DNA from: an uncultured Eubacteriales bacterium
Lineage (GTDB): Bacteria > Bacillota > Clostridia > Lachnospirales > Lachnospiraceae
Assembly (NCBI GenBank): GCA_949294665.1
Contig: CASFID010000003.1
Span: 1 to 64,000 of the forward strand
Length of the DNA: 64,000 nt
Direction of reading: 5' to 3'
In this document: positions 13,449-57,127 of the stretch, one piece after another
Position numbering within the stretch: position 1 is the stretch's first letter
How the letters are laid out: every line of letters begins with the position of its first letter
Position numbers and translations under genes: made by a program
The notes under the pieces: model-generated
What the model was told of the DNA's origin: nothing
Seen by the model: only the letters and a program-made list of their open reading frames with translations
The model's database searches: none

Positions 13449-13538
13449 AACCTTACCCTCCCAAACGGTTATTTACACGTTTACAAAGGTAACAGGATTC
13501 TGTGACGTTTCTGTGTTGTAAATGTGATAAAGAAATGG

Positions 13539-13775: not shown

Positions 13776-13819
13776 AATATCCTTCTTCTCATTTTATCGC
13801 CACGGCAAAGGCGTCTCTC

Positions 13820-36003: not shown

Positions 36004-36020
36004 AATCAGATTTTCCTTTC

Positions 36021-37025: not shown

Positions 37026-37039
37026 ATTTCTTTCTCCTC

Positions 37040-37675
37040 TCAATGATTCTCTTTTGCAAACTGGTGGATCGTGCGGAGCATATAATAGAGAGATGTAGCT
37101 CCTGCGTCCTGATGTCCGACTGATTTTTCCCGCAGGAAATGGGACCGTCCCATCTTCGCCTGCATGTCGATCGTGCTTTCCACTCCTTTCTTTGCGGCTT
37201 CTTCTGCTGCTCCCGCGGCTGCCTCCAGTCCGCTGCTGCGATTATCGTCTGCGGCTTTGGCAGCGGGCGCCAGAGCGTCCACAAGAGTTTTATCGCCTAC
37301 AGAGGCTCCTCCCAGATCCATCACTTTTGCCGCAGCGTTCTTGAGTCCGTCCGCATACTCTGCAGAATCAATCTGTCCGGAATCTTTCGCCGCCTTTCCA
37401 ATCTCGTTTACAACAGTTGAAAAAATAGGGCCTATCGCGCCGCCGATCGTAGCTCTCATCGCCCTGCCGTACAGCTTGAAATAGTCCGCTACACCCGTAT
37501 CCTCCGGCAAGTCACTGACAGCCTCATAACCGGCCCGGCTTCCTCTTGCCATGCTCTCACCATGATCTCCGTCGCCGATCGCACGGTCGTATCCGCAAAG
37601 TTCTTCCTTTTTGTCTTCAAACATATCGGTAATACATTTTAACAGTTCCTTTACATTTTCCTGTGTTATAACCAT
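37040..37675 (-). CDS. dhaL: DhaL-like kinase nucleotide-binding subunit (cluster 1)
   Basis: The 211-residue protein has the DhaL metal/nucleotide motif AIGDGDHGESMARG, the GGAIGPIF segment and GDKTLVDALAPA, all typical of DhaL. It is the first gene of the leftward cluster dhaL-dhaK-aldolase-ADH-BCCT, divergent from the MerR regulator with an 80-bp gap. A pseudo-symmetrical ATTATT/AATAAT pair in the gap could be a MerR site for this operon, weakly supported. Confidence 0.88.
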   Translation of the reverse strand: MVITQENVKELLKCITDMFEDKKEELCGYDRAIGDGDHGESMARGSRAGYEAVSDLPEDTGVADYFKLYGRAMRATIGGAIGPIFSTVVNEIGKAAKDSGQIDSAEYADGLKNAAAKVMDLGGASVGDKTLVDALAPAAKAADDNRSSGLEAAAGAAEEAAKKGVESTIDMQAKMGRSHFLREKSVGHQDAGATSLYYMLRTIHQFAKENH

Positions 37676-37700
37676 TCCACATCTTTCCTTTCCTGTTTGT

Positions 37701-37729
37701 TTGAAATATAAATTATTGTCTGCTATAAT
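37701..37729 (+). promoter_or_regulatory. Promoter of the MerR regulator gene
   Basis: TTGAAA (37701-37706), 17 bp and TATAAT (37724-37729), 26 bp before the start codon. Confidence 0.7.
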
Positions 37730-37755
37730 AATCCAAAAACGGCAGGTGGATCATT

Positions 37756-38610
37756 ATGCAGGACTTATCTAAAAAACTCACAATCGGACAGTTTGCACAT
37801 TTCAACAATATCTCTGAGCAGACGCTTCGCTATTATGATCAGATCGGGCTTTTACATCCTGCCGAACAAAATGAGAAAACCGGATACCGCTACTATAAAA
37901 TAACCCAGTGCGCTATTCTGGATATTATCTCGCACATGAAATCTCTCGGCATTCCGCTCAAGGATATCCATACCTATCTCAAAACCAACGACCAGAACTG
38001 GATGACAGAAACTCTGAGGCAGAAGTATGATATCAATGCCCGTGAGATCGCCCTCCTCCAGGAGACACAGGCCGTTATCAGGAAAAAAATCTCCGATTAC
38101 ACGAGCTATTCTAAATTGCCCAAAGCAGGCATCCCATATATCGAGATGATGCCTGAAAGGATCATCTACAAATACGATACCAAAATAAACTATTATTATA
38201 CGGAAGACTCTGCCGCCAACTACGAATACATGCTCCGCTCATTCAAAGATAATCTGACAGGGCAGGATCTTCCGTCCGTCTATTTCTATAATGTCAGCAG
38301 TATTATGCGCCGTGAAAATTTTGTCGCACACAATTTTATAACTACAGAGCTTTTCGTTTTTATCAACGAAAACGACCGGGAGCGTTTCACTGTTACAGAA
38401 CCGGTAAAAGGCGGCGCCTTTCTCTGTATGATCTGCAAAGACTCCAATTATGAAGTTTTTTACATAAACCGCCTGCTCGAGGAAATCCACGACAAAGGTT
38501 ACACAGTATCCGGTGATTATATCTGCGAAGTTGTGAGCGAATTTATATCCTCCTCTGATGACAGAAGAGATATGATCCTGAAACTTCAGGTGCCCATCGA
38601 ATTTGCTTAA
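37756..38610 (+). CDS. MerR-family regulator with GyrI-like effector domain (BmrR/BltR type)
   Basis: The 284-residue protein has an N-terminal MerR winged helix (TIGQFAHFNNISEQTLRYYDQIGLL, RYYK), a coiled dimerisation helix (about residues 75-115) and a C-terminal GyrI-like ligand domain ending EVVSEF and LKLQVPIEF. Such regulators sense small hydrophobic or cationic ligands and activate promoters with 19-bp spacers. It is divergent from the dhaL operon and convergent (4-bp overlap) with the MFS gene, whose promoter has exactly such a site. Confidence 0.85.
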   Translation: MQDLSKKLTIGQFAHFNNISEQTLRYYDQIGLLHPAEQNEKTGYRYYKITQCAILDIISHMKSLGIPLKDIHTYLKTNDQNWMTETLRQKYDINAREIALLQETQAVIRKKISDYTSYSKLPKAGIPYIEMMPERIIYKYDTKINYYYTEDSAANYEYMLRSFKDNLTGQDLPSVYFYNVSSIMRRENFVAHNFITTELFVFINENDRERFTVTEPVKGGAFLCMICKDSNYEVFYINRLLEEIHDKGYTVSGDYICEVVSEFISSSDDRRDMILKLQVPIEFA

Positions 38611-39932
38611 GCTGATCTCTGCTGACTCTGCATCTTCTTCTGGCGCAGGACAAGCGCGATACCGCTTATGAACATCAGCGCGCAGCCGCCCAGTGCAAGA
38701 TACCATACTCTGTTATAGGCGTCTATCGGCGCCAGCGTCTCCTGCCACCGTCCTATGACCGTGTAGATCCATGTATCTGATGAATACCCCAGAAACGACA
38801 CGACTCCTGTCATGGTTCCGAAAATCTTCGGATCTACGCCGGTCTCATCCGTACAGGCAAAGTTCTGTGCTTTTGCAAGAAGCGCTATAAAACTCAGGAT
38901 GATAGCAAGCCCCATGACTATGAGCAGGAAATCCGGCTTGATCGGCATCAGAAGCGTGACTGCCAGCCCGATCGCGCTTAATACGGATGTCGCGATACAA
39001 AGTCTTGTAGGCGAGTTTTTCAGGATTGCGATCGACATGATAACGATAGACAGCGGGCCCGCGATGATCTTCATCATCTGATTACGCACAATGCTGAAAT
39101 AAGATGCCGTAGTCATATCCATTCCATAAATATCGCACAGATAAGACTGTGTATAAGTGAGACAGGAATAGATAATGTATGATCCAAGTACGATGAACGC
39201 TGCGATATACGTCATAGGGTTCTTGAGCACTTTCAGGAGTACGCCCTTATTCTCTTTTCTCTTTTCTGCCCGCTTTTCAGATTTGTCCTCCGAACTCTCC
39301 AGCTGTTTCTGCGCTTCCTTTTTCTCCAGTGTCTTCTCCGGAATAACGAGATGAGAAATAATCGCAAGTATGATTCCGAATGCCGCATAGCCGATCCACA
39401 CGAAGCGGAAGCTGTCATGATTAGACTCGGCTCCCAGCATTCCAAAAATAAATGTACAGCAGAATGTTGTAACAAGAGCTCCAACACCCTCAAAAGAACT
39501 GAGCATAGGGAATATCTTTCCCTGCTCTTCTTTGCTTCCCAGCGCCCCCGCTACTTTCGCAGTAGGCGACCACAGCAGACCGATCGTTGTGACTACCCAG
39601 AGCAGTTCCACAAGAAGAGCTACCCAGAACGGCGGATAAAACGCCATGATAACGCATCCCGCCGCTGTACCTGTCAAAGAAATAACAATAAGTTTACGAC
39701 ATGAAAACTTATCTGCACTTACTCCTCCGACCACATAAAACAACAGCGCAAGCGTACCATATGCGCTTAACATAAGACCTAACTGTGTGTCTGTATATCC
39801 ACAGACAGTTGTCAGCTGCTCATGATATGTATAACGGATATACGGAGGTTCATAGGAAAATCCAAAATTGAACCCCAGGAACATAATGATCAGCCAACGA
39901 TTGATTTTAATTTTTGCTGATGACAAATCCAT
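38607..39932 (-). CDS. Major facilitator superfamily transporter
   Basis: The 441-residue protein has about twelve hydrophobic helices, the MFS loop GGVSADKFSCRKL between helices 2 and 3, and a long charged central loop (about residues 200-230). No substrate signature is visible. ATG 39932 follows GGAGGG by 9 bases. Its 3' end overlaps the convergent MerR gene by 4 bp. The promoter at 40026-40056 has a MerR-type layout, so this gene is the probable target of that regulator. Confidence 0.85.
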   Translation of the reverse strand: MDLSSAKIKINRWLIIMFLGFNFGFSYEPPYIRYTYHEQLTTVCGYTDTQLGLMLSAYGTLALLFYVVGGVSADKFSCRKLIVISLTGTAAGCVIMAFYPPFWVALLVELLWVVTTIGLLWSPTAKVAGALGSKEEQGKIFPMLSSFEGVGALVTTFCCTFIFGMLGAESNHDSFRFVWIGYAAFGIILAIISHLVIPEKTLEKKEAQKQLESSEDKSEKRAEKRKENKGVLLKVLKNPMTYIAAFIVLGSYIIYSCLTYTQSYLCDIYGMDMTTASYFSIVRNQMMKIIAGPLSIVIMSIAILKNSPTRLCIATSVLSAIGLAVTLLMPIKPDFLLIVMGLAIILSFIALLAKAQNFACTDETGVDPKIFGTMTGVVSFLGYSSDTWIYTVIGRWQETLAPIDAYNRVWYLALGGCALMFISGIALVLRQKKMQSQQRSA

Positions 39933-40025
39933 TGTTGTTTTCCCTCCATTCTCTTTCACAGTATTTCCCCCTGAGCCGCACTGTAATTTCCCCCTCCTTT
40001 TTGCTCTGTCTCGGGTGCTGGTTAT

Positions 40026-40295: not shown

Positions 40296-40733
40296 TTAAT
40301 GTTGTTCCTCATACTCCAGGATCCGGTCGACTTTTTTCCCGGAGCGCTCGTTATACACATATTCATGTGAAAGGTATTCTGTGATGATCATTTCCGCATT
40401 CTTGATGCCCGTAACCTGAGCTCCCAGCGTAATGATATTACAGTTGTTGCTCAGACACGCTCTCTGTGCGGAATACACATCTCCCACCACAGCCGCATAG
40501 GCGCCTTTTACCTTGTTTGCAGCCAGCATCACACCGATGCCTGTCCCGCAGAAGAGAATGCCCCTGTCGTATTCTCCGGCCGCCACGGCTTCCGCTGCTT
40601 TGATCGCGACATTTGCATAAATCGGATCCTCGCTTCCGAAATCTGTCACCTCATGCCCGAGCCCTTCGATCACAGGAATAAGAGCTCTCTTAAATTCCCC
40701 GGCATTCGGATCACATCCTACTGCAATCTTCAA
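40296..40733 (-). CDS. RpiB/LacA/LacB-family sugar-phosphate isomerase (TTG start)
   Basis: The 145-residue protein has GCD near the start, the catalytic cysteine Cys62 in FCGTGIG, and YSAQ. Where E. coli RpiB has ring-opening His99 (HND) this protein has Ser95 (SNN), and the phosphate-site His of GCDH is Pro9. Loss of the ring-opening His fits an open-chain tetrose phosphate substrate, as in the EryI-type D-erythrulose-4-phosphate isomerases. TTG 40733 follows AAGGAGG by 8 bases. It is the last gene of the operon. Confidence 0.85.
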   Translation of the reverse strand: MKIAVGCDPNAGEFKRALIPVIEGLGHEVTDFGSEDPIYANVAIKAAEAVAAGEYDRGILFCGTGIGVMLAANKVKGAYAAVVGDVYSAQRACLSNNCNIITLGAQVTGIKNAEMIITEYLSHEYVYNERSGKKVDRILEYEEQH

Positions 40734-40779
40734 TGTCCCTTCCTCCTTAATCTTTCCGGCCCCTCTTGTCAGGCCGGTC

Positions 40780-41421
40780 TTATGTAAGAATCTCTGTGAT
40801 CCCGTCGGCCATAGCCTGCAGTATGATACAGCAGGACACGCTTCCGGCATCCAGCACGCCTCTTGAGCGCTCACCAAGACGGCTGGAACGCCCGAACTTC
40901 GCCACCAGTTCCTTCGTGGACTCCATGCCGGCCTGCGCCGCCTCTTTCATCTTCTTAAGCGCCGGAGCCAGATCCGTTCCTTTCTCCGCTTCGCTCTTCA
41001 GTGTGTCGACCGCCGGAGAGAGTGTATCTACCAGAGTTTTATCTCCTACCTTTGCTTCCACGATCTCCTGAAGTCCTGCCAGTCCTGCCGCCAGCATGTC
41101 CGCCAGTTCTGCGGTTGAGATCGTCTCCAGCTCTTCTCCGGCCTCCGCCGTATCCATGAAGATCGTTCCATAGATCGGGCCCATGGAACCGCCGATCTGG
41201 GAGAAGAGAATATTTCCCAGATTATCCAGACCTTCTGTGAAGGTGAACTCTTTGTCCTGATACTCTTTTTCAAAAAGCGAAAAGCCTTTGTTCATATTCA
41301 TGCCATGATCGCCGTCTCCGATCAGACCGTCCACTTCGCCAAGATATGCTTTGTTATCCTGAATCGCTTTTACCATCTTCATCAGGACATGTTTTCCGTT
41401 TTTGTTATAAAATACGCTCAT
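40780..41421 (-). CDS. dhaL: DhaL-like kinase nucleotide-binding subunit (cluster 2)
   Basis: The 213-residue protein has LIGDGDHGMNMNKG, the GGSMGPIYG segment and GDKTLVDTLSPA, the DhaL hallmarks. It follows the DhaK gene by 19 bp. It differs clearly from the DhaL at 37040-37675, so the two are old paralogues rather than a recent copy. It should supply the nucleotide site for phosphorylation of a ketose bound by DhaK. Confidence 0.88.
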   Translation of the reverse strand: MSVFYNKNGKHVLMKMVKAIQDNKAYLGEVDGLIGDGDHGMNMNKGFSLFEKEYQDKEFTFTEGLDNLGNILFSQIGGSMGPIYGTIFMDTAEAGEELETISTAELADMLAAGLAGLQEIVEAKVGDKTLVDTLSPAVDTLKSEAEKGTDLAPALKKMKEAAQAGMESTKELVAKFGRSSRLGERSRGVLDAGSVSCCIILQAMADGITEILT

Positions 41422-41440
41422 AACTGTCCTTCTTTCTCTC

Positions 41441-42433
41441 TTACTGCTTCATCCCCATACTGTATGCAGGCATGTCGATCAGCTCTTTTAACTCATCGTC
41501 CAGTTTCATGATCGTGAGCGTTGCGCCCATCATTTCCAGAGATGTAAAATAGTTGCCCACATACGCTTTATGCGTGCGGATCCCTTTCGCCTGCAGAAGC
41601 TGATCGATCTCATCGTACAGAACATACAGCTCCATCACCGGCGTCGCTCCCAGACCGGATACAAGAACGACCACCTCGTCGCCCTCAACGAACGGATAAT
41701 CCGGGAGAACGATGTCCACCATGCGTTTCGCCATGTGATGCGCGTCTTCCAGTTCGCACACCTCGATGCCCGGCTCCCCGTGATGGCCGATACCTACCTC
41801 CATCGTGCCTTCTTTGATCTCAAAGTTCGGGTGGCCTACTGCCGGGAGCGTACACGGCGTCAGACCGATCCCAACGCTTCTCGTATTGTCGATCGCCTTC
41901 TGTGCGGCAGCGATCACTTCTTCAAGGCTTCCGCCTTTCGCAGCCTTTGCCCCTCCTACTTTCCACATCAGGACCTCTCCCGCCACACCGCGGCGCTTCT
42001 CTTTCTGGTCCTTTGGTGCGGATGCGACGTCGTCATTTGCAACGACGGTCTTTACGGTGATCCCTTCTCTCTTTGCCATTTTCGCCGCCATTTTCACGTT
42101 CATGTTATCTCCGGAATAGTTTCCGTACAGACATGCAACGCCCTGTCCCTGATCTGCAGCCTTGAATGCGTCGAGAAATGCCGCCGCAGTCGGTGAGGAA
42201 CAGATCTCGCCAACCGCTGCCGCGTCGCACATGTTCTTGCCGACATAGCCGATAAATGCCGGTTTATGTCCCGAACCGCCGCCCGTCACAACGCCCGTCT
42301 TTCCTTTTGGGATATCTTTCGCTTTTACCACTCGCGGATTCTCTGTCGCTTCTACGATGTCAGAATGCGCTTTCAAAAAGCCTTTGAGCATTTCGTCGAC
42401 AATGTCATCCGGATTGTTCATGATTCTCTGCAT
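41441..42433 (-). CDS. dhaK: DhaK-like ketose kinase substrate subunit (cluster 2)
   Basis: The 330-residue protein has TGGGSGHKPAFIGYVGK and GIGHHGEPGIE, whose His holds the ketone covalently. The motif GHKP replaces GHEP of classical DhaK. ATG 42433 follows AAAGGAGGAG. It is flanked by the TIM-barrel isomerase and DhaL genes. DhaK-family kinases for erythrulose are known from tetritol pathways, and the downstream isomerases fit that reading here; dihydroxyacetone or another ketose remains possible. Confidence 0.87.
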   Translation of the reverse strand: MQRIMNNPDDIVDEMLKGFLKAHSDIVEATENPRVVKAKDIPKGKTGVVTGGGSGHKPAFIGYVGKNMCDAAAVGEICSSPTAAAFLDAFKAADQGQGVACLYGNYSGDNMNVKMAAKMAKREGITVKTVVANDDVASAPKDQKEKRRGVAGEVLMWKVGGAKAAKGGSLEEVIAAAQKAIDNTRSVGIGLTPCTLPAVGHPNFEIKEGTMEVGIGHHGEPGIEVCELEDAHHMAKRMVDIVLPDYPFVEGDEVVVLVSGLGATPVMELYVLYDEIDQLLQAKGIRTHKAYVGNYFTSLEMMGATLTIMKLDDELKELIDMPAYSMGMKQ

Positions 42434-42446
42434 AACTGCTCCTCCT

Positions 42447-43304
42447 TTACATCTGACCGGCAATTTTCTTCAGATTTGCAAGTCCCTGTATCGCCAGATC
42501 TTCTCCGCTGTCCGCCAGTTTTCTCCAGATCGCACAGTTTCCCGCAAGTTCTTCAAATTTCGGATCGAAAGACTCGATCACAAGCGGGCCGTCGTATCCC
42601 ACCTCGTGAACTGCACGGAAGAATTCCTCGAACGGCACAAGGCCCGTTCCCGGGATACCGCGGTCGTTCTCGTTGACATGGATGTAGCCCAGATACTCTT
42701 TGCCGCACGTCTTAACCGCGCCTGAGAAGCTCTTCTCCTCGCGGATCATGTGGAAGCAGTCCAGATGGACTTTCATGTTGCCTGTTCCCACATCCTTACA
42801 GAACTTCACCGCGTCTTCCGCAATATTCAGAAAGTGTGTCTCGAAACGATTTACGCACTCCACGCAGATCGTGACGTTTCCGGTCTCTTTTGCATACTCT
42901 GCCGCCTCTCTCATGCAGGTGACTCCCCACTCCCATTCCTGCTCCGTGCGGGGGCGTTTTGTCAGATATCCCCAGCCTGCATAGTTCACTCCTCCGAGGA
43001 TCGGGGACCCCATCTCGTTGCAGATATCGATCGCTTTTTTCATAGCCGCAACCGCCGCTTTTCTTATCTCCGGATCCGGGGAGATCGGGTTTGTCTCTGC
43101 TGTCAGTGTCGTTGTGCACACGCACTCAAGCCCCACGCGGTCTAATTCTGCTTTCGCTGCGGCAGTCGGAAACTTGTATGGATCGGAGATCGCAAAGTCA
43201 ACGACTTCAAATCCGATCTCCTTTGCCTTTTCGATCACCCAGAGATCTTTCTCGGAAAAGTTTTCCGACCATATAAATGTATCTACGCCAAATTTAAAAT
43301 ACAT
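42447..43304 (-). CDS. TIM-barrel sugar(-phosphate) isomerase/epimerase
   Basis: The 285-residue protein belongs to the xylose-isomerase-like TIM barrels close to ketose 3-epimerases and erythrulose-phosphate isomerases. Metal ligands are visible in CVECVNRFETHFLN, VHLDCFHM, the HVNENDRG segment and LVIESF. It lies 13 bp before dhaK and shares the unit with RpiB. A likely role is conversion of L-erythrulose-1-phosphate to D-erythrulose-4-phosphate (LerI/EryH-like), inferred from family and context. Confidence 0.82.
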   Translation of the reverse strand: MYFKFGVDTFIWSENFSEKDLWVIEKAKEIGFEVVDFAISDPYKFPTAAAKAELDRVGLECVCTTTLTAETNPISPDPEIRKAAVAAMKKAIDICNEMGSPILGGVNYAGWGYLTKRPRTEQEWEWGVTCMREAAEYAKETGNVTICVECVNRFETHFLNIAEDAVKFCKDVGTGNMKVHLDCFHMIREEKSFSGAVKTCGKEYLGYIHVNENDRGIPGTGLVPFEEFFRAVHEVGYDGPLVIESFDPKFEELAGNCAIWRKLADSGEDLAIQGLANLKKIAGQM

Positions 43305-43332
43305 AGCCATTTCCTCGCTTTCATATTTTACA

Positions 43333-43363
43333 AAAGCCCGAAATACTAAATATTTCAGGCTTT
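43333..43363 (-). terminator. Intraoperonic hairpin between bicupin and isomerase genes
   Basis: Arms 43333-43345 and 43351-43363 form a 13-bp stem with one G-U pair on the minus strand and a 5-nt loop, followed by TTTTG. It lies within a 93-bp gap and should attenuate transcription into the isomerase-kinase genes. Confidence 0.55.
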
Positions 43364-43397
43364 CACTTTTACCATTCGGCAGAACCCGGACGTATTC

Positions 43398-44312
43398 TTA
43401 CAGTTCTGTGACCGCAAATACGACTTTGATCGGTTTCGCCTCAAAGTTTACCAACTGATATTTCGTTCCGGCAGGAAGGAAGAATGTGTCTTCCGGCTCC
43501 AGAACAAAGCTCTCCTGAAGGTCTACAAGATTGACTGTGACCGGTCCGTCAACACAGTACAGCGCGCCGTCGCCTGCATGGCAGTCAGGATCCGAGCATC
43601 TTGGTCCATATCCGCCGGCCGGCAGGATCATCTCTCCGAAGTGACCGTAGTCATTGCTCGTGATGAACCTTAAAAGCATGGGATGCGTCGTTCCATGTAC
43701 GTTGTTCAGTTTCTCAAAATCACGCACTGCATATACCGCTCCTGTTTCTCTCGCCTCTGCAGCGTCTACCGGCCAGTGTCCGATATCGTCCGTGCAGCCC
43801 TGACGGGAGATGTCTTTGATCGCTCCTCTCATGTCCGGAAGCTGGCTGTTATTCGGCCCTTTATAGAACTTCGTCTCTTCCTCAGTCGGGATCACTGCCG
43901 GAGGAATAGACTCGCTCCATGCCTTCGGTGTGATGAAATAAAGGATCCTTGCCTTCTTGTCCGAGAAGTTGTGACAGCAGTGCCATGCGCCCTCCGGCAT
44001 GAACAGGCCCTCTCCTGTCTCAAGGTAGGCAAACTGTCCGTTGCCGCTGCGCTGTACGACCGGACCGCTCAGGATATAATAAGATTCATCTCCGGGATGG
44101 ATATCCAGCGGAGCAAACACTCCGCCCGGTCCCAGTTCATAAATTCCGAGCATAAACGTATCCGTTGTGATCATTGTAAATGTATTGTCCGATGTGAACG
44201 CATTGTTCGGCGGATATAAAGCCGTTGAATAGTCCTGCTTGCGGATCAGCATTGGTTTTTTCTGATCCGGTTCAAACGGAAATTTCCCCATGATATCAAA
44301 TAATTTTGCCAT
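43398..44312 (-). CDS. Bicupin protein of unknown function
   Basis: The 304-residue protein has two cupin barrels. The first (about residues 45-130) has HPGDESYYILSG and EGAWHCCHNF; the second (about 215-300) has ILPAGGYGPRCSDPDCHAGDG and EDTFFLPAGTKYQ. His and Glu residues of the first barrel could bind a metal; in the second the usual His is partly replaced by Cys/Asp. GAGGAG precedes the ATG. It lies between ptsI and the isomerase, so it is probably a sugar or sugar-phosphate isomerase or epimerase, or a sensor. Not assigned. Confidence 0.75.
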   Translation of the reverse strand: MAKLFDIMGKFPFEPDQKKPMLIRKQDYSTALYPPNNAFTSDNTFTMITTDTFMLGIYELGPGGVFAPLDIHPGDESYYILSGPVVQRSGNGQFAYLETGEGLFMPEGAWHCCHNFSDKKARILYFITPKAWSESIPPAVIPTEEETKFYKGPNNSQLPDMRGAIKDISRQGCTDDIGHWPVDAAEARETGAVYAVRDFEKLNNVHGTTHPMLLRFITSNDYGHFGEMILPAGGYGPRCSDPDCHAGDGALYCVDGPVTVNLVDLQESFVLEPEDTFFLPAGTKYQLVNFEAKPIKVVFAVTEL

Positions 44313-44352
44313 TTTCTTGTTCTCCTCTCTGATTTCATTTTCCGGCTGCTGC

Positions 44353-46038
44353 TCATTTTTCCAGCAGCTCTTTTATCTCTTTTAGAGTTGCCTTTCCGAC
44401 CGCCTGTCCGGCAAGGCCGCAGGCTTCTTCATAGTTTATATTCCGAAGCCTGTATTTCACATCTTTGATCGAACCCGCCGACATACTGAACTCGTCAAGC
44501 CCCATTCCCAAAAGGAGCTCCGAAGCCTGGACATTGCCCGCAAATTCTCCGCACATACCGGCTTTGATCCCATGTGCATGGGCGCAGTCTATCACATGCT
44601 TCACCGCGCGCAGCACCGCCGGATGGAAGGAATCGTACAGGGAGGAAATATTCTGATTTCCTCTGTCCACGGCGAGCAGATACTGTGTCAGATCATTGGT
44701 TCCGATACTGAAAAAGTCCACTCTCTGAGCAAAATCGTCTGCCATCACAACAGAAGACGGCGTCTCGATCATCATTCCGACTTCAATGTCTTCCCGGAAT
44801 GAGATTCCCTGCTCTTTCAGTTCAGCCTTGCATTCTGCAAGCAGTCCGTTGGCCTGCTCCAGTTCTTCTACCGAGATCAGCATCGGATACATAATCCTGA
44901 TATTTCCATATATACTCGCGCGAAGGAGCGCCTTGAGCTGTGTCTTAAACATATCCGGCATATCCAGGCAGAGCCGGATCGCCCGGCAGCCGAGGAAGGG
45001 ATTCTCTTCTTTCGGAAACTCAAAATAATCAAGCCCCTTGTCTCCGCCAATGTCCAGCGTGCGGATCGTAAGTTCCTTTTCTCCTGCGAGAAGAGCCGCC
45101 TCTTTATAGATCTCAAACTGCTCTTCTTCTGTAGGAAAGCCGTCTTTTTTCATCATATAGACGAACTCGCTTCGGAATAATCCGATACCTTCCATCTGGC
45201 TTTCCAGAGCATCTTTAATGTCCTCAATGTTCCCCACATTTGCGCACAGCATGAATCCGTGTCCGTCTTTTGTAACGGAAGGATTTCTGCTCTCTTCCTC
45301 CATGATGCGCTCCTGTTCTTCAAATTGCTGTTTCTTTTGTGTATATTCTTCGATCACGGACTCCGTCGGGTCCAGATAGATATCTCCTGTTCCTGCATCC
45401 ATCACGACCGTCATGCCTTTTTCTGTCTGGGCGCAGATATCCTTTACTCCGATCAGGCAGGGAATGCCTTTCCCTTTCGCAATGATCGAGACATGACTCG
45501 TAACTGAGCCTTCTTCTGTCAGGAAACCAAGGACTTTGCCAAAGTCCATATCCGCGGTGTCCGAAGGCGTCAGTTCCTCCGCGACGATGACCGACGGAGC
45601 ATCCAGCCCGGCGAAGGGATTTTCCTCCACGCCGGCCAGCGCGTACAGCAGGCGCTTCTTGACGTCTTTTAAATCATCGCTGCGGGCTCTCATATATTCA
45701 TCATCCATGCTTCCGAATATCACGATGAACTCGTCGGCCGTATCTTCAACTGCCGCCTCTGCGTTATTGCCTTCTTTGATCTTCTCAGTGACTCCTTCGA
45801 TGAGCGCCACATCCCGCACAAGCTGGATGTGCGCCTCAAAGATCTCCGAGTCTTTCGCGAACTTCTCAAGCTGTGCCGCAGCAGTTTCCACTGCCGCCTG
45901 ATAGCGTCCGATCTCCGTTTCTACTTCTTCCGGCCGGATCTGCCTTCTGTTCACGACGAACGGCCTGCGGATCACCGGATAGACCGGACCGATGGCATAC
46001 CCCTTGGAGGCCGCTGTAGGTACTGATATTTTTTTCAT
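44353..46038 (-). CDS. ptsI: PTS Enzyme I
   Basis: The 561-residue protein transfers phosphate from PEP to HPr. It has the phosphorylated His182 in SVTSHVSIIAKG (family normal GGxTSH), the PEP-binding barrel with GIGLFRSEF and IGTNDLTQY, and the catalytic Cys in GMCGEFAG. It is slightly shorter than E. coli Enzyme I (575). It lies 21 bp after ptsH inside a sugar-specific operon, unlike the usual stand-alone ptsHI. Confidence 0.94.
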   Translation of the reverse strand: MKKISVPTAASKGYAIGPVYPVIRRPFVVNRRQIRPEEVETEIGRYQAAVETAAAQLEKFAKDSEIFEAHIQLVRDVALIEGVTEKIKEGNNAEAAVEDTADEFIVIFGSMDDEYMRARSDDLKDVKKRLLYALAGVEENPFAGLDAPSVIVAEELTPSDTADMDFGKVLGFLTEEGSVTSHVSIIAKGKGIPCLIGVKDICAQTEKGMTVVMDAGTGDIYLDPTESVIEEYTQKKQQFEEQERIMEEESRNPSVTKDGHGFMLCANVGNIEDIKDALESQMEGIGLFRSEFVYMMKKDGFPTEEEQFEIYKEAALLAGEKELTIRTLDIGGDKGLDYFEFPKEENPFLGCRAIRLCLDMPDMFKTQLKALLRASIYGNIRIMYPMLISVEELEQANGLLAECKAELKEQGISFREDIEVGMMIETPSSVVMADDFAQRVDFFSIGTNDLTQYLLAVDRGNQNISSLYDSFHPAVLRAVKHVIDCAHAHGIKAGMCGEFAGNVQASELLLGMGLDEFSMSAGSIKDVKYRLRNINYEEACGLAGQAVGKATLKEIKELLEK

Positions 46039-46059
46039 AGTTTTCTTCCTTTTCGGATA

Positions 46060-46332
46060 TTAGTCGGTTTCTTCTCCGAAGCCGCCTTCGATCGCCTCGA
46101 CCAGGTTCCTGAGATCTTCCTCTTCATTTTCACCCTCACAGACGATTTCTATTTCCGTTCCTTTCACAAGACCGGCGCTCATTAAGACCAGTACGCTTTT
46201 GGGGTTCACTCTCTTCTCCCCTGCTATGATCGTAATGTGCGACGACATCTTTGCCGCTAATTTGGACAATTCCGCCGCCGGCCGTAAATGAAGTCCAGAT
46301 TTGTTAACAACAGTGGTTTTCTGGCTGACCAT
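46060..46332 (-). CDS. ptsH: Phosphocarrier protein HPr
   Basis: The 90-residue protein has His15 in KSGLHLRPAA (phosphorylated by Enzyme I) and Ser46 in NPKSVLVLMS, the HPr-kinase site. The segment around Ser46 differs from the usual LKSIMGVMSLG, so CcpA co-regulator function may be weak. It precedes ptsI and follows the EIIA gene across a strong hairpin. Confidence 0.93.
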   Translation of the reverse strand: MVSQKTTVVNKSGLHLRPAAELSKLAAKMSSHITIIAGEKRVNPKSVLVLMSAGLVKGTEIEIVCEGENEEEDLRNLVEAIEGGFGEETD

Positions 46333-46363
46333 AATACTATCTCCTTACAATCATCTTATTTTA

Positions 46364-46398
46364 GAAAAGGAAGCCGATCATCCACCGGCTTCCTTTTC
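46364..46398. terminator. Bidirectional terminator-like hairpin between EIIA and ptsH
   Basis: GAAAAGGAAGCCG (46364-46376) and CGGCTTCCTTTTC (46386-46398) form a perfect 13-bp stem with a 9-nt loop, flanked by A-rich and T-rich ends. It should stop most transcripts between the PTS permease genes and ptsH. No clear new promoter was seen downstream. Confidence 0.7.
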
Positions 46399-46448
46399 TA
46401 CAGAAATTATTCTCTGCCATTATCTGAGTCGGCACATCAACTGCGTCA

Positions 46449-46931
46449 TTATTCCAAAGACTCCTGTGTCTTTCGGATCGCATCGATCAGTTCATCGTAA
46501 TCCTTCACTTCTCCCAGCATCTCCAGAAACTCATCGTGTGCCAGAAGCTGTGCCAGCGCCGCAAGGATCCTCAGATGCTGCGTCTTTCCATCCTCGCCAC
46601 AGACAGCCATCGTGAAGATGTATTTTACCTCTCCTTCTTCATCGTGAGATCGGTAGAGAAACGGCGTCTTAACCCTGCAGAATCCCACTCCCGGATGTAC
46701 TACTTCGTCGCATATGCCATGGGGCATTGCGAGAAAATTTCCAAGGTATGTAGAGCCTTCTTCCTCTCTGGCATACAGCGCCTCCGTGAATTTTAAAGCG
46801 TCGGTAACGATTCCGTTTTCTGCAAATTTCCCGGACATATATGTAAACAACTCGTCTTTGTCCGCGAATGTGTCTTTATCAAGTATTGTCAATTCTGGAA
46901 GCAATACTTCCAATACGTTTACTGTTTCCAT
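46449..46931 (-). CDS. PTS fructose-family EIIA component
   Basis: The 160-residue protein has the phosphorylated His71 in FLAMPHGICDEV, typical of EIIA-Fru/Mtl. ATG 46931 follows AAGG by 8 bases; the GTG three codons earlier is too close. It receives phosphate from HPr and passes it to the EIIB at 48044. It lies 27 bp after the EIIC gene. Confidence 0.9.
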   Translation of the reverse strand: METVNVLEVLLPELTILDKDTFADKDELFTYMSGKFAENGIVTDALKFTEALYAREEEGSTYLGNFLAMPHGICDEVVHPGVGFCRVKTPFLYRSHDEEGEVKYIFTMAVCGEDGKTQHLRILAALAQLLAHDEFLEMLGEVKDYDELIDAIRKTQESLE

Positions 46932-46958
46932 TGTCTGCACCTTACAAATCTTATAGAA

Positions 46959-48014
46959 TTATGCCTCTTCTTCAACGACATCAGGATCTTTTCTCATCAC
47001 GAGCAGCAGAAGCGCCGCAGTAACGGCCGCGCCGATCACGCTGCAAAGAATGAAGATCAGCGGGTTGCTCATTGTGAAGAATACAAATAATCCGCCGTGT
47101 GGAGCCTGGATCGAAAGGCCGAGCGCGTAAGAAAGCGCACATCCTACCGCAGATCCGGCCATCAGGCACGGGATAACTTTAAGCGGGTGTTTCGCCGCGA
47201 ACGGGATCGCAAACTCTGTGATCATACCGATCGCACCTACGAACAGGCCGGGAACCGCACTTCTCTCTGTTGCAGTCCATTTCTTTCTGGAGAGAAGGAC
47301 GCAGATCGCAAGGCCAAGCGGAGGCGTGATACTTCCGACGAAGTTAGCGCCCATCGGAAGGTAGTTGCCTGTTTCCAGAGCCGCAAGAGCAAATGCGTAG
47401 GCAACTTTATTACACGGACCGCCCATGTCAAATGCGAGCATACATCCCTGTACGATACCCAGAATGATCATGTTCCCGGTTCCAAGGCCATTGAGCATAT
47501 CTGTCAGAACTCCTACAAGGAGACCAAGCGGTGTTCCTATGATATAGCGCATGATCAGACAGATAGAGCCGCAGCCGACCAGCGGGATGATCATTGTCGG
47601 AAGGATGGATTTCATGCTTGCCGGCAGCGGGATCTTCTTCAGAAGTCTTACAATGTAACCTGCAAGGATACCGGCGATAAGAGCTCCGAGGAATCCCGAC
47701 GGATTCCCTGCCGTCCCCCACGGATCCAGCGCCATGTAGCCGCCGAACAGTCCGGGAGCGATGCCCGGTCTGTCAGCCAGCGAGTAAGCTACATATGCAC
47801 CCAGTACAGGACACATAAAAGTATCAAGACCGATCTTGCCGCTCCAGAAAATACTGGATGCAAAAGTTTCACCCTGCGCTACGTCATTCGGCACATTATA
47901 TCCCCCAAGCAAAAAGCCTAATGCAACCAGAATACCGCCCGCGACAACGACAGGAATCATATAAGACACGCCCGTCATCAATGCCTGCTGAATATCTTTT
48001 AACGTTGATTTCAT
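46959..48014 (-). CDS. PTS fructose-family EIIC permease
   Basis: The 351-residue protein has about nine hydrophobic segments and the EIIC-Fru features SYMIPVVVAGGILVALGFLLGG and the GPCNKVAYAFALAAL segment. It carries the sugar across the membrane during phosphorylation. It lies 29 bp after the EIIB gene. The substrate is not readable; a short ketose or polyol is suggested by the neighbouring enzymes. Confidence 0.92.
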   Translation of the reverse strand: MKSTLKDIQQALMTGVSYMIPVVVAGGILVALGFLLGGYNVPNDVAQGETFASSIFWSGKIGLDTFMCPVLGAYVAYSLADRPGIAPGLFGGYMALDPWGTAGNPSGFLGALIAGILAGYIVRLLKKIPLPASMKSILPTMIIPLVGCGSICLIMRYIIGTPLGLLVGVLTDMLNGLGTGNMIILGIVQGCMLAFDMGGPCNKVAYAFALAALETGNYLPMGANFVGSITPPLGLAICVLLSRKKWTATERSAVPGLFVGAIGMITEFAIPFAAKHPLKVIPCLMAGSAVGCALSYALGLSIQAPHGGLFVFFTMSNPLIFILCSVIGAAVTAALLLLVMRKDPDVVEEEA

Positions 48015-48043
48015 TTTCTCTCCTCCTTAATTTGGTATTGCGC

Positions 48044-48343
48044 TTACTTTTTCTCAAAAATAAGATCCGGGTTTTTAATTACATCATGCGGTTTTGTCTG
48101 AAGCACTTTCTCTTTGTAAGGCTCGAATCTTTCCGGATTGATAAGCCCCACGTCGTTTGCAAAAACGATCAGATCCGCCTCTTCGATATCTTTCGCCTTC
48201 AGCTCGTCTTCAATTCCCAGAGCGCCCTGCTTCTCTACCTTGCACTTATGCCCGTTTGCCTTGCAGACTTTCTGGATTGCTTCCGCAGCCATGTAGGTAT
48301 GCGCGATTCCCGTCGCACACGAGGTAATAGCAACGACCTTCAT
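48044..48343 (-). CDS. PTS fructose-family EIIB component
   Basis: The 99-residue protein has phosphorylated Cys9 in ITSCATGIAHTYMAAEA, the EIIB-Fru signature. It passes phosphate from EIIA to the incoming sugar. It follows the aldolase gene and precedes EIIC, all as separate polypeptides. Confidence 0.93.
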   Translation of the reverse strand: MKVVAITSCATGIAHTYMAAEAIQKVCKANGHKCKVEKQGALGIEDELKAKDIEEADLIVFANDVGLINPERFEPYKEKVLQTKPHDVIKNPDLIFEKK

Positions 48344-48378
48344 TTTTCCACCTTCTTTCTTACTTATATTCGGGAAAT

Positions 48379-49263
48379 TTATTTTCCGTTTCTAAACGCG
48401 GACATTACATTTTTCGCATATCCCCGCATATGCTCGAACGCTGCTTCAGTAAGTTCGTGATATGCGATCGTCCCGTTCGTTTCAGCAATTTTATCCGCAC
48501 AGAACTGTGTCGTGCTCTTTGCCATGTAAGAATAATAGTTGATCTTGGAGCATCCTGCTTCGATCGCTTTCTGTACCTGTGAAAACTCAACGCCCGACGC
48601 GCCGTGCATAACGATCCTGCAGTCGTCTTTCACCGCGCTTCTGATCGCTTTTACTCTGTCGATATCCAGGACCGGATCTTCAGCATAAATGCCGTGCATT
48701 GTTCCAAAGCATACTGCAAGAGCGTCGCAGTTTGTTCTCTCTGCGAATTCCGCAGCCTCTTCCGGTTTTGTAAAGAATTTACGGATATCCGCGTTTGTCA
48801 GAACTCTCTTCTCTGCGTCTTCGCCTCCGTGGGTATCTTCTTCTGTCGACGCCATCACGCCAAGCTCGGCCTCTACCGTTATCCCCCGCGCATGTGCAAA
48901 GTCGACAAATTCTTTTACCTTTGTGACATTTTCTTCAAACGGAAGATCGCTGCAGTCAAACATGATAGACGGGAATCCGGCCTCCAGAGCTTTCATCAGG
49001 AACGTATAACTTTTGCCGTGATCCAGATGAACGCACACCGGAACCTTCGCCTCTTTCGCAGCTTTTACCATCAGCGGGCCCATACGCTCGATCGGTATCA
49101 ATGAGTTGTGTACCTCCGCATGATCGATGATGATCGGCGTGTCCAGATCCTCCGCCGCTGCGATCACAGCTCTGAGAGTATCCATATTGGGAGTATTGAT
49201 ACAGGGAATCCCATATTTTTTACTCTCAGCCTCTGCAAGAATTTCTTTTAAATTTACTAACAT
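48379..49263 (-). CDS. Class II ketose-bisphosphate aldolase (cluster 2)
   Basis: The 294-residue protein has the zinc-aldolase features VHLDHGKSYT, VEAELGVMASTEEDTHGGED, a GTMHGIY segment and VMHGASGVE. It should cleave a ketose phosphate made by the PTS or by DhaK/DhaL into DHAP and an aldehyde. It differs clearly from the aldolase at 35152. It lies between the PRD regulator and EIIB genes. Confidence 0.9.
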   Translation of the reverse strand: MLVNLKEILAEAESKKYGIPCINTPNMDTLRAVIAAAEDLDTPIIIDHAEVHNSLIPIERMGPLMVKAAKEAKVPVCVHLDHGKSYTFLMKALEAGFPSIMFDCSDLPFEENVTKVKEFVDFAHARGITVEAELGVMASTEEDTHGGEDAEKRVLTNADIRKFFTKPEEAAEFAERTNCDALAVCFGTMHGIYAEDPVLDIDRVKAIRSAVKDDCRIVMHGASGVEFSQVQKAIEAGCSKINYYSYMAKSTTQFCADKIAETNGTIAYHELTEAAFEHMRGYAKNVMSAFRNGK

Positions 49264-49316
49264 CGTTTTTTCCTCCTGTTATGTTTATCTATAACTGTTA
49301 ATCCGTGCGCACGTAA

Positions 49317-51242
49317 TCAACAATCATTTAACAATAGTGACAGTATTTCGGCTCTGTCTTCCGCAGCCCGGATACTGTTGATCAGCTCCTCGTTTTTCAA
49401 AATCTGATACATGTGTTTGAAGATTTCTCTGATATCCCTGGCGGACTCATCGCTGATCGCAAAACAGAATATGATGTCCGCCCAGTCGTTTTCCGACCAT
49501 TTCACCTTGTTTTTCAGCCGGGCGACTGCAACGCCGCTTTTCTTTACGTTCTTAATGTAAACGTGCGGGATGGCCAGCCCTTTCCCGATCACTGTCGGGT
49601 AGTTGTCCTCGCGTTTCATGATCTCTTCATAAAACCCGTTTTCAGTGTATCCGCATTTTTCCATATGCCCTGCGATCTTGAGCAGCGCGTCTTCTTTATC
49701 GATCGCAGCCAGATCTATGATAAGCTGCTCCTGATATATCCTGGAAATGATATCTTCATCTTTATCGATCTGGACCAGCCGGTTCCGGATCGTCTCGATA
49801 TCTTTTTCGGATACGTGTTTTGTGATGCGAATGAGGTTCTTCCTCTCGTCTTTTATATTTACACTGGAAATAATCAGTATATTGCTGTAGTTCTCAATAT
49901 GAAAGTCCTTGTAATATATACATTCACAGAAATCAAGATAAGGAAATTTTTCTTTCAGCTTATTCAGATAATAATTGCTCTGCTCTGTTGTAGAGGCGGT
50001 CACAAATACTGCTTTCTTTTTATGGCTCTGCATATGGCTGACCAGATTCAGAACAAGGATCGCGATATCATCCTTCTGGAACTCCAGCCCCGTCTCCCCT
50101 TCCAGGAGACTTATATGCAGCATACACAGCGCGTATAAGCTCGTATATCTCCTGCGGACTTCATGGCTGATATCCAGCCAGTCGTAAATTCTGTAATTCG
50201 TCCGGTATCTGATCGTATTGATCAGATCTGCCAGCCTGTCGATCAACTCCGAGTCAAATTCAAAAGTTGCGTCAACTGAATTTCTGATCTCATCCAGGAA
50301 AGTCCTGGCCACCCTTCTGTCGGTGGGTTCGATCCTTTTGTTTCCGTCCACCGTCAGCGCCACGTAAAGCCTGGCCGCAAGATACACTCTTTCGTGTCTC
50401 CAGTATTCTTTCTGCGGATATGCGAAAACCGGTTTGAAGAAGTCGGCGGCCTCCAGATATTTCTCTTCAATTCCAAGCCGTTCGCCCGGCAGATCGTCTT
50501 TTATATATTTCCCGCGCCTGATCCTCTTCTGAGTGATCAGGATATATTCCAGGAGTCTCCCGTATGCAATATCCATAAAGTTTGTATCCAGATATCTCTC
50601 AGCCTTCTCAATACGCCGCTGTATCGCTACGATATTGGAGACGTCCTGTGCGTAATACTCTGTAATAAAGGTCCATGCCCTGTCGCTGAGTCTTGGATCG
50701 ATCTCGCGGGGCGCCTTTAAATAATCTGTTTTGAACAACCTTTTGTTCTGAAAAAATGTGATCGCCTGACGGATCTCAAACTCATTTCCGTCGATCACGA
50801 TCCCCTTGTTCTTTTTAACAAGGAACTTGATATGAAATCTTTCAAGAAGCTCGTTCAGATTGTCAAGATCATTCAATATCACACTTCTGCTCACATACAG
50901 TTCATCTACAAACAATCTGACCGAATAGTTTTTTTCATAATTCAGAAGCGTATCCAGAATATAATTTTTGCGGCACTCGGAAGTCCCCGGATCGTTCGCC
51001 ATAAAATCCCTTAACCGGATCGTATTTTCTTCAAAATCACCTGAAATACTGTTTATGACAAACCCTTCTGATGGTATGCTCCTGATCCCCAGACCGAATC
51101 TTTTCAATTCATCTCTGGCAAAATTTATATTATGTTTTATATTGCTTTCTGACGTTCCTATCCTTTCTGCTAATTTGCCTGCTGTCAAACCCTTGCGCGC
51201 ATTAACAAGTTCAATAATAATTTTTTCGACTATTAATTTCAT
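49317..51242 (-). CDS. BglG/MtlR-type PRD transcriptional regulator with EIIA domain
   Basis: The 641-residue protein has N-terminal HTH domains (LTAGKLAERIGTSESNIKHN and a second Mga-like segment), two PRD domains (about residues 185-400), an EIIB-like segment and a C-terminal EIIA domain with LAIPHVYIKNV as phosphorylation site. Such activators respond to PTS flux through histidine phosphorylation. As the first gene of the PTS operon, it probably activates its own transcription when the sugar is present. Confidence 0.9.
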   Translation of the reverse strand: MKLIVEKIIIELVNARKGLTAGKLAERIGTSESNIKHNINFARDELKRFGLGIRSIPSEGFVINSISGDFEENTIRLRDFMANDPGTSECRKNYILDTLLNYEKNYSVRLFVDELYVSRSVILNDLDNLNELLERFHIKFLVKKNKGIVIDGNEFEIRQAITFFQNKRLFKTDYLKAPREIDPRLSDRAWTFITEYYAQDVSNIVAIQRRIEKAERYLDTNFMDIAYGRLLEYILITQKRIRRGKYIKDDLPGERLGIEEKYLEAADFFKPVFAYPQKEYWRHERVYLAARLYVALTVDGNKRIEPTDRRVARTFLDEIRNSVDATFEFDSELIDRLADLINTIRYRTNYRIYDWLDISHEVRRRYTSLYALCMLHISLLEGETGLEFQKDDIAILVLNLVSHMQSHKKKAVFVTASTTEQSNYYLNKLKEKFPYLDFCECIYYKDFHIENYSNILIISSVNIKDERKNLIRITKHVSEKDIETIRNRLVQIDKDEDIISRIYQEQLIIDLAAIDKEDALLKIAGHMEKCGYTENGFYEEIMKREDNYPTVIGKGLAIPHVYIKNVKKSGVAVARLKNKVKWSENDWADIIFCFAISDESARDIREIFKHMYQILKNEELINSIRAAEDRAEILSLLLNDC

Positions 51243-51427: not shown

Positions 51428-52081
51428 TCATCTGCATATATATTCCAAAATTTCTCCGGGATTATGCACAACTTTTGTAGCATTATACTTACGCAGCTCC
51501 TCCTCGTCCCGAAATCCCCACGTCACGCCGATCGTATCCATTCCGGCGTTTTCTCCCGTAAGCATATCTGTTTTGGAATCTCCGATATAGACGATCTCTG
51601 CCGGCGCAAGTCCCATTCGCGACGCGATCTCAAGCGCCGCCGCCGGATCAGGTTTCTTCGGATACTCTCTACAGTTTCCGATCACCGCAACGAAAGCTGT
51701 CTCAGGGAAAAATTTTCGCACGAGCGCCTGCGTATAGTCCGTTCTCTTATTTGAATTCACACCCAGTCTGATCCCTTTTTCCGCAAGCTGTCTGACGAGC
51801 TCCTCGATCCCGTCATACGGCGCCGTCCGGTTTATGTAGTTTCTGTCATAGACAGATAAGAATTCTTCCAGGACCTTTTCAATGATCTCCCCGCTGCGCG
51901 CTTCTTTTGGTAGACTTCTCTCGATCAGATTATAGAAACCGCCGCCGATCATTTTCTTATACTCCTCAGAAGAATGCCCGCTATAACCATACGTTTCCAG
52001 CGCCTGGTTTACGCTGTCCGACAGATCGTACAGTGTATTCAGCAAAGTTCCGTCCAGATCAAATACAACTCCTTGATACAT
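51428..52081 (-). CDS. HAD-family phosphatase (phosphoglycolate phosphatase-like)
   Basis: The 217-residue protein has HAD motif I FDLDGTLLNT, motif II VNSNK and motif IV IGDSKTDMLTGENAGM, with a helical cap (about residues 20-85), as in Gph/PGMase-type enzymes. ATG 52081 follows AAAGGAG. It is monocistronic. The physiological substrate is not known. Confidence 0.88.
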   Translation of the reverse strand: MYQGVVFDLDGTLLNTLYDLSDSVNQALETYGYSGHSSEEYKKMIGGGFYNLIERSLPKEARSGEIIEKVLEEFLSVYDRNYINRTAPYDGIEELVRQLAEKGIRLGVNSNKRTDYTQALVRKFFPETAFVAVIGNCREYPKKPDPAAALEIASRMGLAPAEIVYIGDSKTDMLTGENAGMDTIGVTWGFRDEEELRKYNATKVVHNPGEILEYICR

Positions 52082-52259
52082 TGTCTTTTCTCCTTTCACC
52101 ACAAAAAACCACTTTTCAAGTATTTCTTATAATTTATCGGGTTACCTCTTTTAAGTCCATATATCATAAATGCGATATTTGCACTATCACCAAAATCCAC
52201 GATATTTATGTTGATTTTTTTCAGTCTTTTTTAAACATGCTCTGTATAAAAACAAAAAA

Positions 52260-55080: not shown

Positions 55081-55182
55081 TTCTTTCTCCTTCCCTTCTT
55101 GTCTATTTTGCGTGATATATATTAAAGCTCCCTCTGATATAAGAGAACCTTAATACCGCTTTCATCAATTCCGCCCGTCCGC

Positions 55183-55995: not shown

Positions 55996-55996
55996 C

Positions 55997-57007: not shown

Positions 57008-57127
57008 CTGCATCCCCTGATCTTCTGTGTGACTGACTGAATGCGTATCTATAATACCCCCCCCATTTATTTCGTCAAGAGTTTTCAACACTTTTTGATG
57101 TTTTTAATAACTTTTCCACAAGCACAC

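Follow-up and report, generated by a model that had tools for sequence, protein, structure and literature searches.

Which sugar does a bacterium degrade with an operon that joins a complete phosphotransferase system (PTS) to an aldolase, a bicupin, a DhaK/DhaL kinase pair and a relative of RpiB? The question is raised by a 64,000-nucleotide stretch of DNA (hereafter the window) from an uncultured Eubacteriales bacterium of the Lachnospiraceae (assembly GCA_949294665.1, contig CASFID010000003.1, positions 1 to 64,000), in which twelve genes, all on the minus strand, span positions 40296-51242. From 51242 down to 40296 they encode a PRD activator, class II aldolase, EIIB, EIIC, EIIA, HPr, Enzyme I (EI), bicupin, TIM barrel, DhaK, DhaL and RpiB-like isomerase (Table 1). 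The first-pass annotation had named this gene set at one locus, and all twelve genes are indeed present on the same strand. We propose, at a probability of roughly 0.4, that the operon serves to break down a ketose longer than four carbons via its 1-phosphate, which would be split to dihydroxyacetone phosphate (DHAP) and an aldotetrose that enters a tetrulose route.

From the gene content, conservation, sequence signatures and kinship that we observe, we infer the following activities, as well as the phosphate at C1, the tetrose and, as discussed below, a seven-carbon (C7) substrate. The PTS would import the ketose and place a phosphate on C1. The class II aldolase, to judge by its family and motifs, would cleave the ketose-1-phosphate, giving DHAP together with a free aldose (most likely an aldotetrose) that the bicupin may convert to erythrulose. 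The TIM barrel, a member of an epimerase family, would adjust the configuration of erythrulose at C3. The last two steps are the ones that comparison supports well: phosphorylation of erythrulose to D-erythrulose-4-phosphate, presumably by DhaK/DhaL, and its isomerization to D-erythrose-4-phosphate, presumably by the EryI-type RpiB.

Conservation of the gene set

With the bicupin as bait, relatives 74-97% identical over the best segment were found on 39 named contigs and, together with the bicupin locus of the L019 genome, these give 40 related loci besides the window. Counts over these loci are lower bounds, since some contigs end within the locus (e.g. L029, L039, L046, L049); the DhaK and DhaL matches of L053 are counted, yet they lie away from its bicupin. 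A class II aldolase is found in 38 of the 40 loci, EIIB and EIIC in 35 each, DhaK and DhaL in 34 each, EIIA in 33, the PRD regulator and the TIM barrel in 27 each, RpiB in 26 and a HAD phosphatase in 14; least frequent are EI and HPr (8 each) and a triose-phosphate isomerase (TPI) of the EryH type (5). With partners recurring this often across the 40 bicupin loci, the grouping of these genes is not due to chance.

The RpiB-like isomerase and the kinase

The exit of the operon, a tetrulose-phosphate route to D-erythrose-4-phosphate, is well supported by two comparisons, namely the signature of its RpiB and the kinship of its DhaK to a tetritol-type operon. In what we call S-type RpiB, Ser takes the place of the ring-opening His (His99-equivalent, HN motif), and CGTG retains its catalytic Cys. 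With ribose-5-phosphate as substrate, this His serves to open the furanose ring; since tetrose-4-phosphate is unable to form such a ring, loss of the His fits a four-carbon substrate. All 27 bicupin-locus RpiB copies read, including that of the window, have this signature, and the N-terminal Asp-His is lost in all but L050 among the 26 locus copies examined. Ser is also present in 7/7 comparison copies, which comprise EryI of two rhizobial erythritol loci (L069, L070), tetritol-type loci of Klebsiella (L072), Listeria (L073) and Pasteurella (L068), an apionate-type locus (L071) and an operon elsewhere in the window's own genome. All 29 ordinary RpiB controls, taken from the best-scoring RpiB loci in other genomes of the order, keep His. 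Among solved structures, 5ifz (the best sequence match, a Brucella protein), 3qd5 and 3sdw have SNN, and 3he8 and 3ph3 have His. The NCBIfam model for D-erythrulose-4-phosphate isomerase gives 120.7 bits for the window RpiB and 168 for the other copy in this genome, both under the cut-off of 240.

In ten bicupin genomes that were searched, S-type RpiB was found in all eight of the PTS type, in five of them only outside the locus (L038, L042, L044, L047, L048), and in neither of the two in which an ABC transporter takes the place of the PTS (L051, L052). Those five are among the 11 PTS-type loci without a local RpiB (one of which, L046, is cut), and the genome search covered these five. Across 38 other genomes of the order, 37 had an RpiB-family match and, among the matches read (11 weak ones being left out), an S-type copy was present in four (G093, G111, G125, G126); in G125 alone was it accompanied by nearby DhaK/DhaL visible to tblastn.

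DhaK of the window shares 85% and DhaL 77% identity with their counterparts in an operon on contig C44 of the same genome (locus L022, 5136-8394); among the bicupin loci the closest DhaK, that of L047, reaches 78%. The C44 operon consists of a dehydrogenase (a zinc alcohol dehydrogenase of the threonine-dehydrogenase-like family), DhaK, DhaL and an EryI-type RpiB with the same signature, beside a ribose-type ABC transporter. It probably handles free tetritol, and its gene content is that of the D-threitol route reported for Mycolicibacterium. Unlike in the window, no PTS, aldolase, bicupin or epimerase was seen beside it, either by eye or by family scan. Given that its nearest relative stands in this tetritol-type operon, the window DhaK is probably an erythrulose kinase. 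In at least seven related loci (L024, L025, L040, L055, L060, L061 and L023, which is cut) DhaK and DhaL are, by length, fused. DhaM was not found among the operon proteins, to which the search was limited, and in this the pair differs from the PTS-dependent dihydroxyacetone kinase DhaKLM. The known apulose route also uses a DhaK-type kinase, which would allow for a branched substrate of the apiose/apulose type, a possibility that the first-pass annotation had raised too; however, no transketolase was found among the operon proteins, nor any enzyme for the formaldehyde that a retro-aldol cut of apulose would release, and such a substrate is highly improbable.

Erythritol is degraded in Brucella and Rhizobium by the route EryA-EryB-EryC-EryH-EryI. 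PMC10733421 describes tetritol and erythrulose enzymes, including EltD/LerK/LerI/DerI of Mycolicibacterium, and related L-threitol and erythritol enzymes, with EryH/LerI converting L-erythrulose-1-phosphate to D-erythrulose-4-phosphate; it also describes an E. coli strain without either transketolase, which is auxotrophic for erythrose-4-phosphate. Like these routes, the operon has a DhaK/DhaL-family kinase, putatively for tetrulose, and an EryI/DerI-type RpiB that would end in D-erythrose-4-phosphate, and five sister loci also carry a TPI of the EryH/LerI clade. Unlike them, it has no polyol dehydrogenase or polyol kinase family among its proteins, as judged by family-model scans, and no EryC-type tetrulose-phosphate epimerase was found in a search limited to the operon; beyond them, it adds a PTS, a DHAP-type aldolase, a bicupin and a protein of the tagatose-epimerase type. 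As neither EryC nor EryH nor a dehydrogenase was found for it, the operon falls outside the erythritol/threitol pathway, and would work like the lower half of that pathway behind a new front end. The first-pass annotation had matched the kinase and two isomerases to the erythrulose route; the kinase and the RpiB-like protein bear this out, but the second isomerase of that route is not what the TIM barrel represents, as described below.

The PTS, the aldolase and the bicupin

All five parts of a PTS are present in the window, and EI, HPr, EIIA and EIIB each keep their phosphorylation residue. EIIB, EIIC, EI and HPr score above the cut-offs of their curated family models, and the fructose EIIA model was narrowly missed. 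A PTS complete in itself, which the first-pass annotation took to mark the system, holds for the window but for only 9/41 loci (window counted), EI and HPr not being found within the other locus stretches. The operon EI is the sole EI found in the assembly, although four further EIIC genes of PF02378 exist there; a second PEP-utilizers_C match at a contig edge was taken for the end of PPDK. All 30 other same-genus genomes searched carry a different EI, 38-57% identical, which makes an assembly gap the likely reason for the single copy, and the notion that this is the organism's only EI was dropped.

The class II aldolase keeps its zinc ligands and the DHAP-binding GxSG/KxN motifs (with one change in L053; the L039 copy is cut). 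It shares the locus with the bicupin in 38/40 cases; in one more, L042 of Oceanobacillus, a class I aldolase of the DeoC/LacD type stands in its place. In L051 and L053 the PTS gives way to a ribose-type ABC transporter with an FGGY kinase, and in L052 to an ABC transporter with a PfkB kinase. Through all of these exchanges (L042, L051-L053) bicupin and aldolase remain neighbours. Aldolase and bicupin are thus the most constant pair, and the other parts are exchanged around them. That this pair is conserved beside either a PTS or an ABC transporter with a sugar kinase suggests that the substrate is longer, and that it would be cleaved first, as a phosphorylated ketose. The operon resembles in this the pathways that degrade ketose-1-phosphates or ketose bisphosphates by means of class II aldolases (GatY/KbaY, YdjI, IolJ), in which the aldolase likewise follows a PTS or a sugar kinase and DHAP is one product. 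It differs from them in that the other half would be no triose phosphate but a free tetrose, which the bicupin and the kinase would salvage.

L053 has a xylulokinase-like gene between the bicupin and an S-type RpiB; the stretch after its bicupin (9695-14655) holds xylulokinase-like genes, the S-type RpiB, 3-hexulose-6-phosphate synthase and ribulose-phosphate epimerase.

The constancy of this pair bears on the view of the first-pass annotation that a tetrulose or tetritol is itself the PTS substrate. The lower half of the operon would serve such a substrate, being a tetrulose-phosphate route. Phosphorylation by the PTS would, however, make the kinase redundant and would leave no role for the aldolase and the bicupin; moreover, with neither a dehydrogenase nor a polyol kinase in the operon and a separate tetritol-type operon in the genome, a four-carbon polyol is an unlikely substrate, and we hold import of any tetrulose or tetritol by this PTS to be quite unlikely.

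In the bicupin, residues D70, H72, E76 and H111 and residues D243, H245 and D248 are invariant in 30 aligned copies. Structure prediction gives a bicupin fold at a mean pLDDT of 75, and comparison by sequence with solved structures returns weak matches only. The predicted fold resembles bicupins in general and leaves the reaction undecided. Split relatives (40-44% identity) occur on rhizobial plasmids. On two of these (L062, L063; 10489-18939) the two-gene bicupins lie with an M20 dipeptidase, a ribose-type ABC transporter, ribulokinase and AraD, and no annotated arabinose isomerase was found with them in gene tables that are incomplete. By analogy, this neighbourhood fits an aldose isomerase role for the bicupin, although such a role does not account for the M20 dipeptidase. 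Another split two-gene bicupin lies beside an M20 dipeptidase and a sugar ABC transporter in L020 (7393-11249).

The phosphate might instead be placed at the far end of the sugar. The PTS would then make an aldose- or ketose-7-phosphate, the bicupin would be a phospho-sugar isomerase, of which cupin examples exist, and the aldolase would release dihydroxyacetone and tetrose-4-phosphate, the former taken up by DhaK/DhaL as a true dihydroxyacetone kinase, the activity for which the DhaK family is named, and the latter adjusted by RpiB and the TIM barrel. Such a scheme gives every enzyme a use. Class II aldolases, however, generally act on DHAP, and this one retains the GxSG and KxN..S/T motifs; the TIM barrel resembles epimerases of free ketoses, and the closest relative seen of the window DhaK sits in a tetritol-type operon. 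We consider a far-end phosphate very unlikely.

The TIM barrel and the EryH-type TPI

By sequence, the TIM barrel belongs with the D-tagatose/D-psicose 3-epimerases. It is 31-35% identical to rhizobial relatives, and the catalytic set of these enzymes (the E, D, H, E metal ligands) and RGxPGxG are kept in 27/27 copies read, the cut L029 copy being unreadable. It scores 175 bits against the D-psicose 3-epimerase model NF051856, under the cut-off of 300, and is not that equivalog; its operon context would be tetrulose metabolism. EryC was considered for this protein and rejected, as the match to EryC of L069 is 26% over 69 aa and the motifs differ. Nor is the epimerase catalytic set kept in EryC or in the PF01261 proteins that the tetritol-type loci of Klebsiella and Pasteurella encode, and the TIM barrel is unlike these as well.

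No TPI of the EryH/LerI type was found in the window's genome (95.9% complete), whose single TPI is of the ordinary clade. Across the 40 loci the TIM barrel (27) and the EryH-clade TPI (5) never occur together, with a hypergeometric probability of 0.002 if the loci are taken as independent, which ignores their kinship and makes the value a rough guide. All nine PTS loci without a TIM barrel were searched for a TPI paralogue. It lies in the locus itself in L023, L024, L025, L040 and L060, and elsewhere in the genome, at 85% and 84%, for L038 and L058, whose loci have neither protein. The sole TPI candidate of the L042 genome is divergent (31%) and lies in a separate locus, L174, which reads by eye as DhaM-DhaK-DhaL-TPI-RpiB; the ninth locus, L050, is taken up below. 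Conversely, among the TIM-carrying genomes checked (L026, L030, L047 and the window), a paralogue TPI was found only in L047. A tree of 25 TPIs places the paralogues from these five loci and from the L038 and L047 genomes with EryH at moderate support (86/82), apart from the ordinary TPIs (96/91).

The TIM barrel and the EryH-type TPI thus seem to solve the same problem. Because a 3-epimerase of free ketose followed by a D-erythrulose 4-kinase would turn L-erythrulose into the product of the EryH/LerI route, we infer that L-erythrulose is the intermediate shared by the two versions. The window itself is a mosaic, and one front end appears to have been joined to either of two tetrulose modules. 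Its front half resembles TPI-type L023 (bicupin 97%, aldolase 86%, HPr 83%, EI 78%, EIIA 77%), and its TIM-DhaKL part resembles TIM-type L026 (TIM barrel 82%, DhaK 71%); its RpiB is 61% identical to that of TPI-type L024/L025 and 41% to that of L026.

A psicose-epimerase-like TIM barrel would also agree with a ketohexose as the substrate. Allulose, tagatose or sorbose would be cleaved as the 1-phosphate to DHAP and glyceraldehyde, from which the bicupin would make dihydroxyacetone for DhaK/DhaL to phosphorylate. The fructose-type EII, the DHAP-type aldolase and DhaK/DhaL agree with this, as do the L038 and L058 loci, which have DhaKL without RpiB or TIM barrel. It would, however, leave the EryI-type RpiB without a job in 26/40 loci; an S-type RpiB occurs outside the locus in the L038 genome, and the DhaK of the window is 85% identical to a kinase that stands beside an EryI-type RpiB. 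A ketohexose is therefore an unlikely substrate in our judgement.

The substrate and the weight of the evidence

If a longer ketose is cleaved to DHAP and a tetrose, a heptulose (C7 ketose) would fit as the simplest substrate, since these products add up to seven carbons. A bolder and rather improbable extension of our proposal is that the bicupin founds a new family of aldotetrose isomerases and that the operon is the first dedicated catabolic pathway for a heptulose, possibly one with the L configuration at C6 (such as the ketose of L-glycero-D-manno-heptose). The PTS would import this heptulose, and cleavage would yield DHAP and a tetrose whose final product is D-erythrose-4-phosphate.

Several observations weigh against our proposal. 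The weakest point is stereochemical. Worked out by hand, the common D-heptuloses sedoheptulose and mannoheptulose would yield D-erythrose and hence D-erythrulose, which needs no epimerase; both the TIM barrel and the TPI therefore fit poorly with them, whereas an L configuration at C6 would call for such an enzyme. The EIIC family tells neither the sugar nor the position of the phosphate. The bicupin is poorly modelled over residues 131-176 (46 residues), and its nearest solved folds, quercetinases, enzymes of the ureidoglycine aminohydrolase type and BacB, hold no pointer to a sugar isomerase. L051 and L052 pair aldolase and bicupin, yet S-type RpiB was not found in their genomes, so the pair can work without an erythrose-4-phosphate exit. 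The L042 locus is without DhaKL. The exchange of TIM barrel for TPI is broken by L050, which has no TIM barrel and whose genome has one TPI, ordinary-looking at a 37% match, and by L047, which has a TIM barrel in the locus and an EryH-clade TPI in another. Finally, the choice of best-scoring matches as the 29 His controls favours ordinary RpiB, and no full-length bicupin was obtained from the four genomes of the order with S-type RpiB; the signature, though uncommon, is therefore not specific to the bicupin system.

Distribution

Carriers of the 39 contigs belong to Lachnospiraceae, Erysipelotrichaceae, Propionispora, Pectinatus, Bacilli and Coriobacteria, and include Anaerostipes, Longicatena, Breznakia, Absicoccus, Faecalicatena, Tetragenococcus, Oceanobacillus and Coriobacteriales; this taxonomic range suggests horizontal spread. 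Among the named strains are Anaerostipes butyraticus JCM 17466, Longicatena caecimuris DSM 29481 and Breznakia pachnodae DSM 16784. In a bicupin search of 146 genomes, 14 matched, including the window's own; a full-length copy beyond it was found only in G132 (84% identical), with a split relative in G083 (32-39%) and weak matches only in 11 others. A mid-distance bicupin profile matched two of 398 genomes of the phylum, the window's own and G312, whose bicupin contig is seemingly the same as that of L039. The system is therefore rare and patchy among genomes.

Operon layout and adjoining genes

Genes in the operon are separated by 13-116 nt (with the RpiB-like end measured to 40727). The listed TTG start of DhaK at 42463 is probably 10 codons too early, and the ATG at 42433 is used in Table 1. 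A promoter and terminator scan gave counts no higher than in shuffled sequence and was not used.

Table 1. Members of the operon and the HAD gene just upstream, with predicted functions.
Feature	Position	Strand	Basis
PRD-type transcriptional activator (probable regulator)	49317..51242	-	PF05043, PF08279, PF00874, PF00359; Mga/HTH + PRD + own EIIA-2 domain
Class II (zinc) aldolase, DHAP type	48379..49263	-	PF01116; zinc and GxSG motifs; closest solved sequence YdjI aldolase 6ofu
PTS EIIB, fructose family	48044..48343	-	TIGR00829, 86.8 bits (cut-off 76.85); SCATG cysteine motif
PTS EIIC, fructose family	46959..48014	-	TIGR01427, 294.6 bits (cut-off 157.55)
PTS EIIA, fructose/mannitol family	46449..46940	-	PF00359; TIGR00848, 91.8 bits, under cut-off 103.5; His in LAMPHG
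HPr	46060..46332	-	TIGR01003, 76.3 bits (cut-off 47.9); His in SGLHLRP
PTS Enzyme I	44353..46038	-	TIGR01417, 611 bits (cut-off 341.7); His in GSVTSHVSII
Bicupin, putative aldotetrose-to-tetrulose isomerase	43398..44312	-	Cupin_2; strong conservation; predicted bicupin fold
D-tagatose/psicose 3-epimerase-type TIM barrel, putative tetrulose 3-epimerase	42447..43310	-	PF01261; match to 7erm D-tagatose 3-epimerase, E 2.5e-45
DhaK, putative erythrulose kinase sugar-binding subunit	41441..42433	-	PF02733
DhaL, putative erythrulose kinase nucleotide-binding subunit	40780..41421	-	PF02734
EryI-type RpiB relative, putative D-erythrulose-4-phosphate isomerase	40296..40733	-	PF02502; TTG start
HAD phosphatase, phosphoglycolate-phosphatase type	51428..52102	-	Just upstream of operon; under curated cut-offs of phosphoglycolate phosphatase models

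The HAD phosphatase is a possible accessory member of the system; that it clears side products such as 4-phosphoerythronate is speculation. Next door, at 35152-39959, lies a second, separate set with a class II aldolase (35% identical to that of the operon), DhaK and DhaL, together with an MFS transporter and a divergent regulator of the MerR type; it may be a further route that combines a ketose kinase with an aldolase. On the other side, at 54283-57091, the translations read by eye suggest a secreted protein that may carry a cell-wall anchor motif, along with one sortase-like and one LytR-type protein.

Significance

The first-pass annotation had suggested that the combination may be a new pathway, and in the titles and abstract openings of the literature searched, on erythrulose and PTS, heptulose, allulose and PTS, tetritol enzymes and cupin/DhaK clusters, we found no published description of the system, which agrees with that suggestion. 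One 2025 paper calls the uptake and phosphorylation of tetroses enigmatic. An operon that imports, cleaves and salvages in this way would, if confirmed, be a new sugar catabolic pathway. It offers a concrete candidate enzyme set for handling free tetrose made inside the cell, and the bicupins form a highly conserved protein family that is open to direct functional tests. Should the substrate prove to be a heptulose, the operon would explain the use of C7 sugars by some gut and food bacteria.

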